DNA of 43,222 bases from Oxalobacteraceae bacterium. GTDB taxonomy: Bacteria; Pseudomonadota; Gammaproteobacteria; Burkholderiales; Burkholderiaceae_D. The notes below the pieces were generated by a model, which was given only the letters and a program-made list of their open reading frames with translations, was not told where the DNA came from and ran no database searches. The stretch covers positions 1-43,222 of the forward strand of contig OMID01000036.1 in the NCBI GenBank assembly GCA_900299005.1, written 5' to 3'. Positions 39,746 to 43,116 of the stretch are shown here, piece by piece. Position numbers and translations under genes: made by a program. Position 1 is the stretch's first letter. Each line of letters opens with the position of its first letter.

Positions 39746-40807
39746 CTAGTCCGTCTTCGCCAGACGACGCCTGCGCACCGCGTCAGCCAGACCATCAAGC
39801 ACATGGAGGCTGCTGTCCCAGTCGATACAGCCATCGGTAATGGACTGACCGTAAGTCAGCTCTTTGCCGGGCACCAGATCTTGGCGACCTGCCACCAGAT
39901 GTGATTCCACCATGACGCCAATGATGCGGTCATCGCCGCCGGCCACCTGGATGGCAATGTCGGCACACACCGGAACTTGATTCTCTGGCTTCTTGGAACT
40001 GTTGGCATGAGACGCGTCTATCATCAGCTTTTGCGATAAGCCATTCGCCGCCAATGCCTTGCTTGCCTCTTCAACGCTGGCGGCATCATAGTTGGGTGCC
40101 TTGCCGCCGCGCAGAATGATGTGGCAATCCTCATTGCCGGCCGTGGACACGATCGCTGAGTGACCACCCTTGGTAACAGAGAGAAAATGATGCGGCTGCG
40201 AGGCTGCCTTGATCGCATCGGCCGCAATCTTGATATTGCCATCGGTACCGTTCTTGAAACCGACGGGACAAGAGAGGCCCGATGCCAGTTCGCGATGCAC
40301 TTGCGATTCCGTTGTGCGGGCACCAATGGCACCCCAGCTGATCAGGTCTGCGATGTACTGGGGGCTGATCACGTCAAGGAATTCGGTACCCGCGGGCAGG
40401 CCGAGCTCATTGATATTCATGAGCAGTTCGCGGGCAATGCGCAAACCCTCATTGATCCGAAAGCTGCCATCGAGGAATGGATCATTGATCAGGCCTTTCC
40501 AACCAACGGTGGTGCGCGGCTTTTCAAAGTAGACGCGCATGACGATCTCCAGATCATCTTTCAAACGCTCGCGCTGCTCGGCCAGACGGCGCGCATACTC
40601 CATGCCGGCCTTGGTGTCATGAATGGAGCATGGACCAATGACCACCATCAGGCGATCATCCTGCCCATGAAGGATTCGATGCAGCGCGGTTCGCGCATTA
40701 GCGGTGACGGTCGCGATGTTTTCTGTACAGGGGAATTCCCGGATCACATGCGAGGGCGGTGTCAGTTCCTTCAATTCTCTAATCCTCAGGTCATCGGTGC
40801 GCGGCAT
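39746..40807 (-). CDS. aroG: 3-deoxy-7-phosphoheptulonate (DAHP) synthase, class I
   Basis: A 353-residue AroFGH-type enzyme that condenses PEP and erythrose 4-phosphate, the first step of the shikimate pathway. Motifs include GPCSIHD, RVYFEKPRTTVGWKGL and DASHANSSK. ATG 40807 (MPRTDDLRIREL) has GGAGAG just upstream. The upstream leader encodes a Phe/Tyr-rich peptide and a terminator, so expression should fall when Phe/Tyr are plentiful. Feedback specificity (Phe, Tyr or Trp) cannot be read with certainty, but the leader suggests the Phe/Tyr type. Confidence 0.95.
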   Translation of the reverse strand: MPRTDDLRIRELKELTPPSHVIREFPCTENIATVTANARTALHRILHGQDDRLMVVIGPCSIHDTKAGMEYARRLAEQRERLKDDLEIVMRVYFEKPRTTVGWKGLINDPFLDGSFRINEGLRIARELLMNINELGLPAGTEFLDVISPQYIADLISWGAIGARTTESQVHRELASGLSCPVGFKNGTDGNIKIAADAIKAASQPHHFLSVTKGGHSAIVSTAGNEDCHIILRGGKAPNYDAASVEEASKALAANGLSQKLMIDASHANSSKKPENQVPVCADIAIQVAGGDDRIIGVMVESHLVAGRQDLVPGKELTYGQSITDGCIDWDSSLHVLDGLADAVRRRRLAKTD

Positions 40808-40835
40808 GGTCTCTCCAGGAATGATGAATGATTCG

Positions 40836-40870
40836 CACAAAAATAAAAAACCGCCATTCCTGGCGGTTTT
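40836..40870 (-). terminator. Attenuator terminator in the aroG leader
   Basis: On the minus strand AAAACCGCCA (40870-40861), loop GGAA and TGGCGGTTTT (40856-40847) form a perfect 10-bp stem, followed by a U-rich tail TTTTTTATTTTT. It is an intrinsic terminator 33 nt after the leader peptide stop and 29 nt before the aroG ATG. An upstream GGCGGT (40922-40917) inside the leader peptide codons can pair with its ACCGCC arm as an antiterminator. Confidence 0.85.
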
Positions 40871-40903
40871 CAAGATTCGGTTCGCTGTCTTCTTTACATG
40901 AAC

Positions 40904-40975
40904 TTACCGCTTCTCCACCGCCGACGGGCCGGAATAGCTAAAGTAAAAGTCAAAAAAGAAGTGCAGATTCGACAT
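40904..40975 (-). CDS. Phe/Tyr-rich leader peptide of the aroG attenuator
   Basis: A 23-codon open frame ATG..TAA on the aroG strand. It begins MSNLHFFFDFYFSYSG: residues 6-14 (FFFDFYFSY) hold five Phe and two Tyr. It lies upstream of a terminator hairpin and shortly after the 3' end of tldD. Ribosome stalling at these codons when charged tRNA-Phe or tRNA-Tyr is scarce would let the downstream antiterminator form. No strong SD is seen before the ATG. The composition and the hairpin together make chance unlikely. Confidence 0.82.
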   Translation of the reverse strand: MSNLHFFFDFYFSYSGPSAVEKR

Positions 40976-41059
40976 ACTGTTTTGCGTCGTTCGGATAAAT
41001 CGAAGTCGAGATGGTGCTACAAAACACGTGGGTTGGCAACTTATTTCAAATTAGGCAAT
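40976..41059 (-). promoter_or_regulatory. Probable aroG promoter region
   Basis: The 84 bp between the tldD stop and the leader peptide must hold the aroG promoter if attenuation is to act. A weak pair TTGTAG - 17 bp - TTTATC is visible on the minus strand, which would start transcription about 11 nt before the leader ATG. This is a low-confidence call. Confidence 0.3.
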
Positions 41060-42520
41060 TCAACCGGTGCCACCCACAGTCAGATCTTCAATCCGCAGCG
41101 TCGGCTGCCCGACTCCTACCGGCACGCTCTGGCCATCTTTGCCGCAGGTGCCAATACCGGAGTCAAGGCGCAGATCATTCCCGATCATAGAGACACGGTT
41201 CAATACGTCCGGCCCGTTGCCGATCAGGGTAGCGCCTTTGACCGGATAGGCGAGCTTGCCATCTTCGATCATCCAGGCTTCGCTGGCAGAAAAGACGAAT
41301 TTGCCATTGGTGATGTCCACCTGCCCACCACCGAAGTTCGCTGCGTAGAGGCCGTGCTTGACAGAGGCAAGTATCTCCGCCGGATCGCGGTCACCGGCCA
41401 GCATGTAGGTGTTGGTCATGCGCGGCATGGGCAGGTGCGCATAGGATTCGCGTCGGCCATTGCCCGTTGGGGACATCTTCATCAGACGCGCATTGAGTGT
41501 GTCCTGAATGTAGCCGCGCAGGATGCCATCTTCGATGAGGGTGGTGCACTGCGTGGCATTACCTTCATCATCCACATTGAGTGAGCCGCGACGGTCGGCG
41601 ATGGTGCCATCGTCAACCACGGTGACCCCTTTGGCTGCAACGCGCTGGCCAATACGCCCGGAAAAAGCGCTGGAGCCCTTGCGATTGAAATCTCCCTCGA
41701 GGCCATGACCAATGGCTTCATGCAGCAGCACACCAGGCCAGCCCGGCCCCAACACGACCGTCATCGGGCCAGCTGGTGCGGGACGAGACTCAAGGTTGAC
41801 CAATGCGGAATTCACCGCCTCGCTGGCGTATTTTTCAATAAGCGCTTCGGAGAAATATCCGAAGTCGTAGCGACCACCCCCGCCCGAGGTACCCACTTCG
41901 CGACGGCCGTCTTGTTCTGCAATCACGGTCAGCGACAACCTCACCAACGGACGAATATCGGCAGCGATGACACCATCGCTGCGAACGACCAAAACAACAT
42001 CCTGCTCACCGGCGAGGCCCGCCATGACTTGTACGATGCGAGGGTCTTTGGCGCGCGCCGTGCGCTCGAGCTTTTCCAGTAGATTTACCTTGGCCGTGGC
42101 ATCCATTGACGCCACGGGATCTTTCGGGAGGTAGAGAGCGCGGGCGCCCGCTGGCTCAATCTTGCCGGCGACCTTGATCTTGCCAGCACCCTGACGGGCG
42201 ATGGTACGCGTCGCGGCAGCCGCATCGAGTAGGGCACGCTCGGAAATCTCATCAGAATACGAAAATGCTGTCCGCTCCCCCGATACCGCACGCACACCGA
42301 CGCCCTGATCAATGGAGAAGCTGCCCGTCTTGACGATGCCCTCCTCCAGGCTCCAGCTCTCGCTGCGCGTGAACTGGAAGTACAAATCGGCGTAATCAAC
42401 GCGATGCGTGAAGATCGACCCCAGCACCTTCAGCAATTTGCTTTCGTCAAGACCATAAGGCGACAGTAGGATATTCCGGGCAGCTTGATGGGTGATCAGA
42501 TTAGGCTCAATGGGCGTCAT
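41060..42520 (-). CDS. tldD: Metalloprotease TldD (TldD/PmbA family)
   Basis: A 486-residue protein. The zinc site HExxxH is in LLHEAIGHGLEGD near residue 267. TldD forms a heterodimer with TldE/PmbA that cleaves unfolded peptides and matures some antibiotics; pmbA is not in the window. Other family regions are NVDDEGNATQCTTLIEDG and SYAHLPMPRMTNTYM. The start at 42520 (MTPIEPNLIT) has no strong SD. It follows the nitrilase gene after a long repeat-filled gap. Confidence 0.95.
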   Translation of the reverse strand: MTPIEPNLITHQAARNILLSPYGLDESKLLKVLGSIFTHRVDYADLYFQFTRSESWSLEEGIVKTGSFSIDQGVGVRAVSGERTAFSYSDEISERALLDAAAATRTIARQGAGKIKVAGKIEPAGARALYLPKDPVASMDATAKVNLLEKLERTARAKDPRIVQVMAGLAGEQDVVLVVRSDGVIAADIRPLVRLSLTVIAEQDGRREVGTSGGGGRYDFGYFSEALIEKYASEAVNSALVNLESRPAPAGPMTVVLGPGWPGVLLHEAIGHGLEGDFNRKGSSAFSGRIGQRVAAKGVTVVDDGTIADRRGSLNVDDEGNATQCTTLIEDGILRGYIQDTLNARLMKMSPTGNGRRESYAHLPMPRMTNTYMLAGDRDPAEILASVKHGLYAANFGGGQVDITNGKFVFSASEAWMIEDGKLAYPVKGATLIGNGPDVLNRVSMIGNDLRLDSGIGTCGKDGQSVPVGVGQPTLRIEDLTVGGTG

Positions 42521-42632
42521 GGGCAGGGAAATAGGTTACCGAGAGCTTGATCATACTGGATCGTCTGATCTCCCGCTGATCTGGGAAGACAAAACCCCGA
42601 ATGCGACAGGGGTTGACGAAACTAGCCAACGC

Positions 42633-42724
42633 GCCGGGATTTATGGCTGCAGACTTCCGACCCTCCACGTGGGTGGAATCACTGCTAGGTCCATCATGGA
42701 CCCCGGCCTTCGCCGGGGTGACGG
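42633..42724. repeat. REP-like tandem unit 1 (left hairpin truncated)
   Basis: It begins within the left hairpin arm (GCCGGGAT) and keeps the right hairpin ACCCCGGCCTTCGCCGGGGT, ending in GACGG. Its middle is diverged from units 2 and 3. Confidence 0.8.
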
Positions 42725-42800
42725 TTTTGCGGTTTCGTTTTGGTTTGGCAGCGAGTCAGCCTTTCATCACCGCGTGCTGAACGATGAACAGGGATCCCCT

Positions 42801-42919
42801 ACCCCCTACCCCGTCATCCCGGCGAAAGCCGGGATCCATCGTTGCGCACCTCGGACTTTCCAAGTGGGTGCGGCCACTGCCAGGTCCGTCATGGACCCCG
42901 GCCTTCGCCGGGGTGACGG
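42801..42919. repeat. REP-like tandem unit 2
   Basis: It starts ACCCCCTACCCC, then the left hairpin GTCATCCCGGCGAAAGCCGG, a ~55-bp middle, and the right hairpin CCCCGGCCTTCGCCGGGG. The two hairpins are mutually complementary, giving a paired, inverted (BIME-like) unit. Confidence 0.88.
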
Positions 42920-42998
42920 CTTTTTTAAGAGTGCCCCGTCATGACAGCGAGTAAGGCTTGAGTAACTGCGCACTGCAGGATAAAAAGGGAGACTACCT

Positions 42999-43116
42999 AC
43001 CCCCTACCCCGTCATCCCGGCGGAAGCCGGGATCCATCGTTGCGCACCTCGGACTCTCCACGTAGGCGCAGCCACTGCCAGGTCCGTCATGGACCCCGGC
43101 TTTCGCCGGGTTACGG
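42999..43116. repeat. REP-like tandem unit 3
   Basis: Nearly identical to unit 2 with scattered substitutions (GCGGAAGCC, and GGGTTACGG at the end). The spacer before it (from about 42946, CAGCGAGT) is homologous to the spacer before unit 2 (from about 42750), so the tandem unit includes the spacer. Confidence 0.88.

Follow-up and report, generated by a model that had tools for sequence, protein, structure and literature searches.

The window (the whole stretch of DNA analyzed, 43,222 nt) has its nearest named relatives in the Oxalobacteraceae (Betaproteobacteria). Its minus strand carries aroG, which matches the DAHP synthase model NCBIfam NF006723 with 587.5 bits (cut-off, 568) and is the sole type I DAHP synthase gene found in the genome, the assembly of which is rated 99.9% complete. 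The genome yielded neither a type II DAHP synthase nor a TyrR-type HTH domain; the latter result fits the remark of an earlier, sequence-only reading of this DNA that E. coli aroF and aroG are instead controlled by TyrR. Farther along the window, at 42603-43110, a 115-nt direct repeat occurs three times (64 to 100% alike, 195 to 198 nt apart), with 29-nt inverted-repeat arms CCGTCATCCCGGCGAAAGCCGGGATCCAT and ORFs reading WIPAFAGMT, which resemble dispersed repeats of Neisseria and other Betaproteobacteria. Upstream of aroG lies tldD, and the sequence between the two genes holds the following features, given in 5' to 3' order:

41034-41039, minus strand: predicted -35 element TTGCCA of a leader promoter (pattern search)
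41011-41016, minus strand: predicted -10 element CACCAT, 17-nt spacer (pattern search)
40904-40975, minus strand: leader peptide MSNLHFFFDFYFSYSGPSAVEKR and its stop codon (window sequence, translation, relatives)
40934-40960, minus strand: regulatory codons, residues 6 to 14, FFFDFYFSY, with five Phe and two Tyr (window sequence, translation)
40927-40938, minus strand: region 1, predicted partner of region 2 when free of ribosomes (folds; ATTCC conserved at the nucleotide level)
40913-40922, minus strand: region 2, core GGCGGT at 40917-40922, in the last leader codons (core kept in three reading frames)
40872-40915, minus strand: inner helices, predicted to extend the 2:3 antiterminator (coordinates read off the fold)
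40862-40867, minus strand: region 3, ACCGCC, common to antiterminator and terminator (conservation, complementarity)
40850-40855, minus strand: region 4, GGCGGT (folds, complementarity)
40846-40871, minus strand: intrinsic terminator stem-loop, 3:4, 11 pairs, loop GGAA (terminator scan)
40836-40845, minus strand: T-rich tract of the terminator (window sequence, terminator scan)
40811-40816, minus strand: putative aroG ribosome binding site GGAGAG (by eye)
39746-40807, minus strand: aroG, DAHP synthase, the putatively regulated gene (NCBIfam NF006723)

The leader ORF comprises 23 codons, from ATG to TAA (minus strand, 40975-40904), and seven of the nine codons for residues 6 to 14 of its product specify Phe or Tyr, exactly as the sequence-only reading had described. 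According to one model of attenuation, sensitivity increases when regulatory codons make up a high share of the leader codons (PMC1183508); seven aromatic codons in nine fit this. Among family leaders, the order and composition of the Phe/Tyr(/Trp) codons in this stretch vary freely. A search of NCBIfam models with four leader peptides at E values up to 10 returned 0 families, although very short proteins may escape such a search, and no Rfam match reached threshold in the window; the aroG leader thus looks unannotated. By eye, no clear Shine-Dalgarno sequence precedes the leader ATG of the window. In several other families (L142, L151, L152, L159, L162, L165, and L168), a -10-like box (TACTAT, TACCAT, TACATT, etc.) lies ~6 to 9 nt 5' of the leader ATG, with no Shine-Dalgarno sequence evident by eye. 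Such spacing would make the leader nearly leaderless, and leaderless translation of the leader peptide is possible at these loci.

The 11-pair stem at 40871-40846, with its T-rich tail, is the sole terminator-like site in a scan of 40780-41120, against an average of 0.4 in shuffled versions of the same stretch, and it ends 38 nt from aroG. It had previously been described as a 10-bp terminator with a U-rich tail. The 5' arm of this stem holds ACCGCC (40867-40862), which is complementary both to the GGCGGT of the 3' arm (40855-40850) and to a second GGCGGT (40922-40917) within the Ser-Ala-Val codons near the end of the leader. The pairing of the last leader codons with the terminator arm, also proposed from the sequence alone, is therefore confirmed as complementarity.

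Of 94 distinct family sequences upstream of aroG, 92 carry both leader and terminator. These 94 remain after removal of one locus with no upstream DNA (L039) and 15 duplicates; since the 80 named loci are the best 80 of 582 and L082 to L110 the best of the family sample, they lean to close relatives. Chance occurrence was gauged with a rule that combined an ATG-initiated ORF of 10 to 39 amino acids containing at least five F/Y/W in nine residues with a GC-rich hairpin and T run no more than 140 nt downstream (ATG starts only). On both strands of the 43-kb window, the rule matched once, at the aroG leader; on both strands of the 80 relatives (459,714 bases), it matched 77 times before aroG and three times elsewhere, the three being antisense and near the aroG start.

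The two exceptions among the 94 regions bear on whether the hairpin merely terminates tldD and the ORF rich in Phe and Tyr codons arose by chance. The geometry of the window would suit such an arrangement, as tldD likewise lies on the minus strand, its end at 41060 being ~190 nt upstream of the hairpin, and 35 of 80 relatives, too, have tldD within 700 nt upstream of aroG. However, it was not found there in the other 45, and apart from L039, which is one of them, 43 of these 44 carry the leader. The one that does not, L073, keeps the terminator with a poorer leader, MRLLLFYFNYSSAKVVKSGKRL. Of the 94 regions, 92 keep the aromatic codons, and where tldD almost abuts aroG (L060, MAG P9_D7_009; ~36 nt from the tldD stop to the aroG start), neither leader nor hairpin remains, which suggests that aroG has there joined the tldD transcript. 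A terminator serving tldD alongside a fortuitous ORF is consequently very improbable, and the leader and hairpin are better regarded as a unit belonging to aroG.

Elsewhere in the order, 25 of the 77 genomes sampled from other families carry the unit (18/60 and 7/17) under a laxer rule (four F/Y/W in nine residues, any of three start codons). No unit was found in the other 52 within the ~570 nt examined per region. The 77 regions were chosen from 115 genomes with a match, and L235 to L237, which belong to the window's own family, were left out of the count. The occurrences span 12 family labels, or 13 family groups when that of the window is included. Outside the order, the unit was found in 1 of 40 regions (L171); a plasmid collection, consisting mostly of enterobacterial aroG, was set aside. 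Second DAHP synthase copies, chosen from the same list, lacked the unit in all 20 cases (L231, L232, and L234 failed the gene-start motif check), and 10 of these copies are in genomes whose first copy has it, including one genome (G018) of the window's own family. The unit thus belongs to aroG rather than to DAHP synthase genes in general.

Two mutually exclusive structures, as the sequence-only reading anticipated for the minus-strand RNA, are predicted by folding. When a ribosome was placed on the last aromatic codon, such that region 1 was masked, and the RNA ended before region 4, the 2:3 stem formed in 8/8 folded loci; moving the ribosome to the stop codon gave the 3:4 terminator in 8/8. 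In the absence of a ribosome and before region 4, region 2 paired upstream (1:2) in 7/8 loci, L049 forming 2:3 instead. Once region 4 is present, the terminator wins on energy in 8/8 loci; the switch must therefore be kinetic, with the choice made during transcription, as in trp. In the window, the antiterminator is predicted to be extended by inner helices pairing GAGA (40912-40915) with UCUU (40872-40875) and CGGU (40906-40909) with ACCG (40878-40881). Folding alone is weak evidence, as the region folds just modestly better than shuffles (z, -1.72; 11/200 in the window). For 50 representatives, the isolated 2:3 segment is predicted to self-fold, its ends having been chosen for complementarity. 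In 42 of 49, the interior of the 2:3 stem folds more stably than dinucleotide-shuffled sequences do on average (mean z, -1.13); z is near or above 0 in several Duganella/Janthinobacterium-type loci.

Covariation was not found in the switch core, either by RNAalifold (43 sequences) or by pair counting (19 sequences), where pairs were invariant or changed on one side. A single both-sided change, in two sequences, was seen in the terminator stem (RNAalifold, 43 sequences). For the base pair adjoining the 2:3 core, permutation that ignored relatedness gave 0.18 for family sequences and 0.04 for the pooled ones. Compensatory support is lacking because all three segments are almost invariant. The sequence-only reading had named conserved aromatic codons, variable flanks, and compensating stem changes in aligned relatives as signs that would support it; the codons and hairpin are indeed kept (92/94) amid variable flanks, while the compensating changes did not appear. 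Conservation, spacing, and reading frame are relied on instead.

Spacing was examined next. Counted from its first base, the last Tyr codon (Tyr14) of the window leader lies 14 nt ahead of the start of region 2. For the last aromatic codon, counted in the same way, this offset is 14 or 20 nt in 86 of the 93 family leaders. In other-family leaders, the gap is 8 to 17 nt, most often 14, in the 23 of 25 where it is measurable. By the usual footprint, 14 to 20 nt is about the point where a stalled ribosome ceases to cover the RNA. The GGCGG core of region 2 is kept in three reading frames, by 88, 3, and 2 family leaders, and in 14, 5, and 4 of 23 other-family leaders. GGTGG replaces it in L073, and the exact GGCGG is absent from region 2 of L129 and L243, in which GGCG is shifted (by eye). 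Constancy across three frames indicates selection on the RNA and not on the peptide.

This frame evidence also bears on a role in trans, in which the peptide or the released leader RNA would act as well, as does peTrpL of Sinorhizobium meliloti in the available account of that system (PMC7298713). The well-conserved C-terminal SYSSPxAVE would agree with such a role, but conservation there is at the nucleotide level (in five family leaders this part is translated in another frame while GGCGG is retained), and the C-termini of other-family leaders are unrelated. An additional function in trans is accordingly improbable, if somewhat less so than a tldD terminator. Codon content and RNA pairing, rather than peptide sequence, appear to be the features under selection.

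A candidate promoter lies upstream of the leader, just behind tldD. By pattern search, 79 of 92 family loci have TTGCCA, or a sequence close to it, paired with a -10 box at a distance of 15 to 19 nt ahead of the leader, and transcription in the window would begin near 41004. A stricter sigma-70 consensus scan scored no promoter at the TTGCCA/CACCAT pair of the window.

Four features by which attenuators are classically recognized are found here: a short leader ORF in which codons for pathway end products abound; a conserved intrinsic terminator between the leader and the first structural gene; an alternative antiterminator that uses the 5' arm of the terminator, predicted in 8/8 loci; and regulatory codons so placed that a stalled ribosome would free region 2 (86/93). 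The parts, their conservation and spacing, and the mutually exclusive complementarity are observed. From them we infer that the leader is transcribed, that ribosomes stall within it, and that stalling leads to read-through into aroG. The aroG leader is very probably a ribosome-mediated transcription attenuator; the view that the classic design of amino acid attenuation is here applied to DAHP synthase has been borne out in its parts, conservation, and spacing.

In the proposed mechanism, leader RNA would start from the putative promoter just behind tldD, and a ribosome would translate the 23-codon leader while RNA polymerase proceeds. With ample charged tRNA-Phe and tRNA-Tyr, the ribosome would reach the stop codon and cover region 2 (GGCGGU), leaving region 3 (ACCGCC) to pair with region 4 as the terminator; a short RNA ending near 40836 and little AroG would result. 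When Phe or Tyr is scarce, the ribosome would stall in codons 6 to 14 and hide region 1, and the free region 2 would pair with region 3 ahead of the synthesis of region 4, such that no terminator forms and aroG is transcribed. If the leader is not translated, region 2 would pair upstream (1:2) and termination would be the default.

A response to both Phe and Tyr, as first suggested from the mixed codons, is plausible. Before region 2, the 93 family leaders hold 449 Phe and 195 Tyr codons. In 45 of them, the final aromatic codon specifies Phe, at 20 nt, the Tyr of position 14 then being replaced mostly by Asn, His, or Asp. In C. glutamicum, the aroR leader contains F-Y-F, and Phe is reported to matter while Tyr supply is without effect (PMC11802643); a response to both amino acids is therefore not certain for the aroG leader. 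An attenuator answering to Phe alone or mainly, with the Tyr codons as passengers, would accommodate these observations. It accords less well with the retention of some Tyr before region 2 in 91 of 93 leaders and with Tyr as the last codon, at 14 nt, in 39, the window included. Sensing of Phe alone or mainly is unlikely on balance, although it is much the strongest of the alternatives considered. Trp codons precede region 2 in 15 of 93 family leaders, and 17 of 25 other-family leaders contain Trp; by eye, no pattern relates the Trp codon to the number of DAHP synthases.

Within the genome of the window, no leaders were found before pheA and pheS. A Trp-rich leader, MFLVKKTKLSPPGAFEAWLWRRWQTHIG, precedes trpE on contig C50 (L214:1252-1338), followed after ~14 nt by a hairpin (GCCGGC..GCCGGC) with a T run directly before trpE; this unit is a candidate for a second, Trp-type attenuator. 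A broader interpretation, which we hold at slightly less than even chances, is that an aromatic attenuator at the entry to the shikimate pathway is an old trait of Betaproteobacteria, replacing TyrR and TrpR. Its codon mix would have been retuned by lineage, with Phe, Tyr, and often Trp read together elsewhere, Phe and Tyr alone in the window, and Trp read there by the separate trpE leader. In several lineages the leader may be nearly leaderless.

DAHP synthase gates all aromatic synthesis, and its textbook control is by repressor proteins; here a single RNA of ~140 nt seems to control aroG by measuring translation directly. The 13 family groups, with their changing Phe, Tyr, and Trp codons, offer a natural series for asking how one leader weighs several amino acids, and the element may be of use in engineering Betaproteobacteria for aromatic production. 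The sequence-only reading is extended here by the Trp codons found in other families, a conserved promoter-like pair, and the precedent from C. glutamicum.

A 2005 survey reports attenuators, predicted from a database, before tyrA operons (PMC1173090). These include Vibrio operons, which by their gene names start with a DAHP synthase gene, and a Bordetella operon for which no such gene is listed. In the accessible text of an Actinobacteria comparison, no conserved RNA structures are described before Phe or Tyr operons (PMC1262725). In the main text of a survey of premature terminators, Burkholderia appears once, in connection with transposons (PMC2965389), and aroG is not named in that of two B. 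cenocepacia transcript studies (PMC5688073 and PMC4603805), one of which has a supplementary table of short 5' untranslated regions (PMC5688073). No description of an aroG leader in Betaproteobacteria was found in open-licence PubMed Central text, nor were its lineage, breadth, and frequent Trp codon described in the literature searched, insofar as those texts were accessible. The place and breadth of the aroG leader are thus probably new. The mechanism is ordinary, as attenuation is known even for DAHP synthase, in the Phe-responsive aroR-aroF of C. glutamicum.

That system is the nearest in function, with Phe and Tyr leader codons before a DAHP synthase gene; in the available account, ribosome stalling is held to raise transcription under Phe limitation (PMC11802643). 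It differs in belonging to another phylum (Actinobacteria), in having F-Y-F against five Phe and two Tyr in the window, and in having been studied by expression, whereas the aroG leader is known from sequence alone; the likeness is drawn from the published description. TyrR control shares the pathway and the signals of the aroG leader but acts through a protein regulator on DNA. According to the accessible text of one comparative study, TyrR controls aromatic genes in Enterobacteriales and aroG in Vibrionales and is conserved among groups of gammaproteobacteria but lacking in other classes (PMC5343134).

The E. coli pheA (pheL) and pheST leaders share with the aroG leader the Phe-rich 1:2, 2:3, 3:4 design and differ in the gene controlled, the aroG leader having mixed Phe/Tyr codons. 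Rfam Phe_leader (RF01859) aligns to the window element over the whole model, with 26.3 bits (E, 0.017) against a gathering cut-off of 55 bits, and the unrelated family RNAI scores the window equally (E, 0.017). Sense-strand matches to Phe_leader were obtained for 5 of 20 other-family elements (21.9 to 30 bits; E, 0.11 to 6.8) and for 0 of 20 upstream regions without the unit, controls that mostly lack a terminator. Membership in Phe_leader was rejected, the scores ranging from below to slightly above 50% of the cut-off; as the resemblance falls on the sense strand and on the element, it is kept as a likeness. With the trp attenuator of E. coli, the aroG leader shares a four-segment switch and termination as the default without translation. 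The two differ in that the trp leader carries Trp codons and has its region 2 around and behind the stop codon, whereas region 2 of the aroG leader lies inside the last codons.
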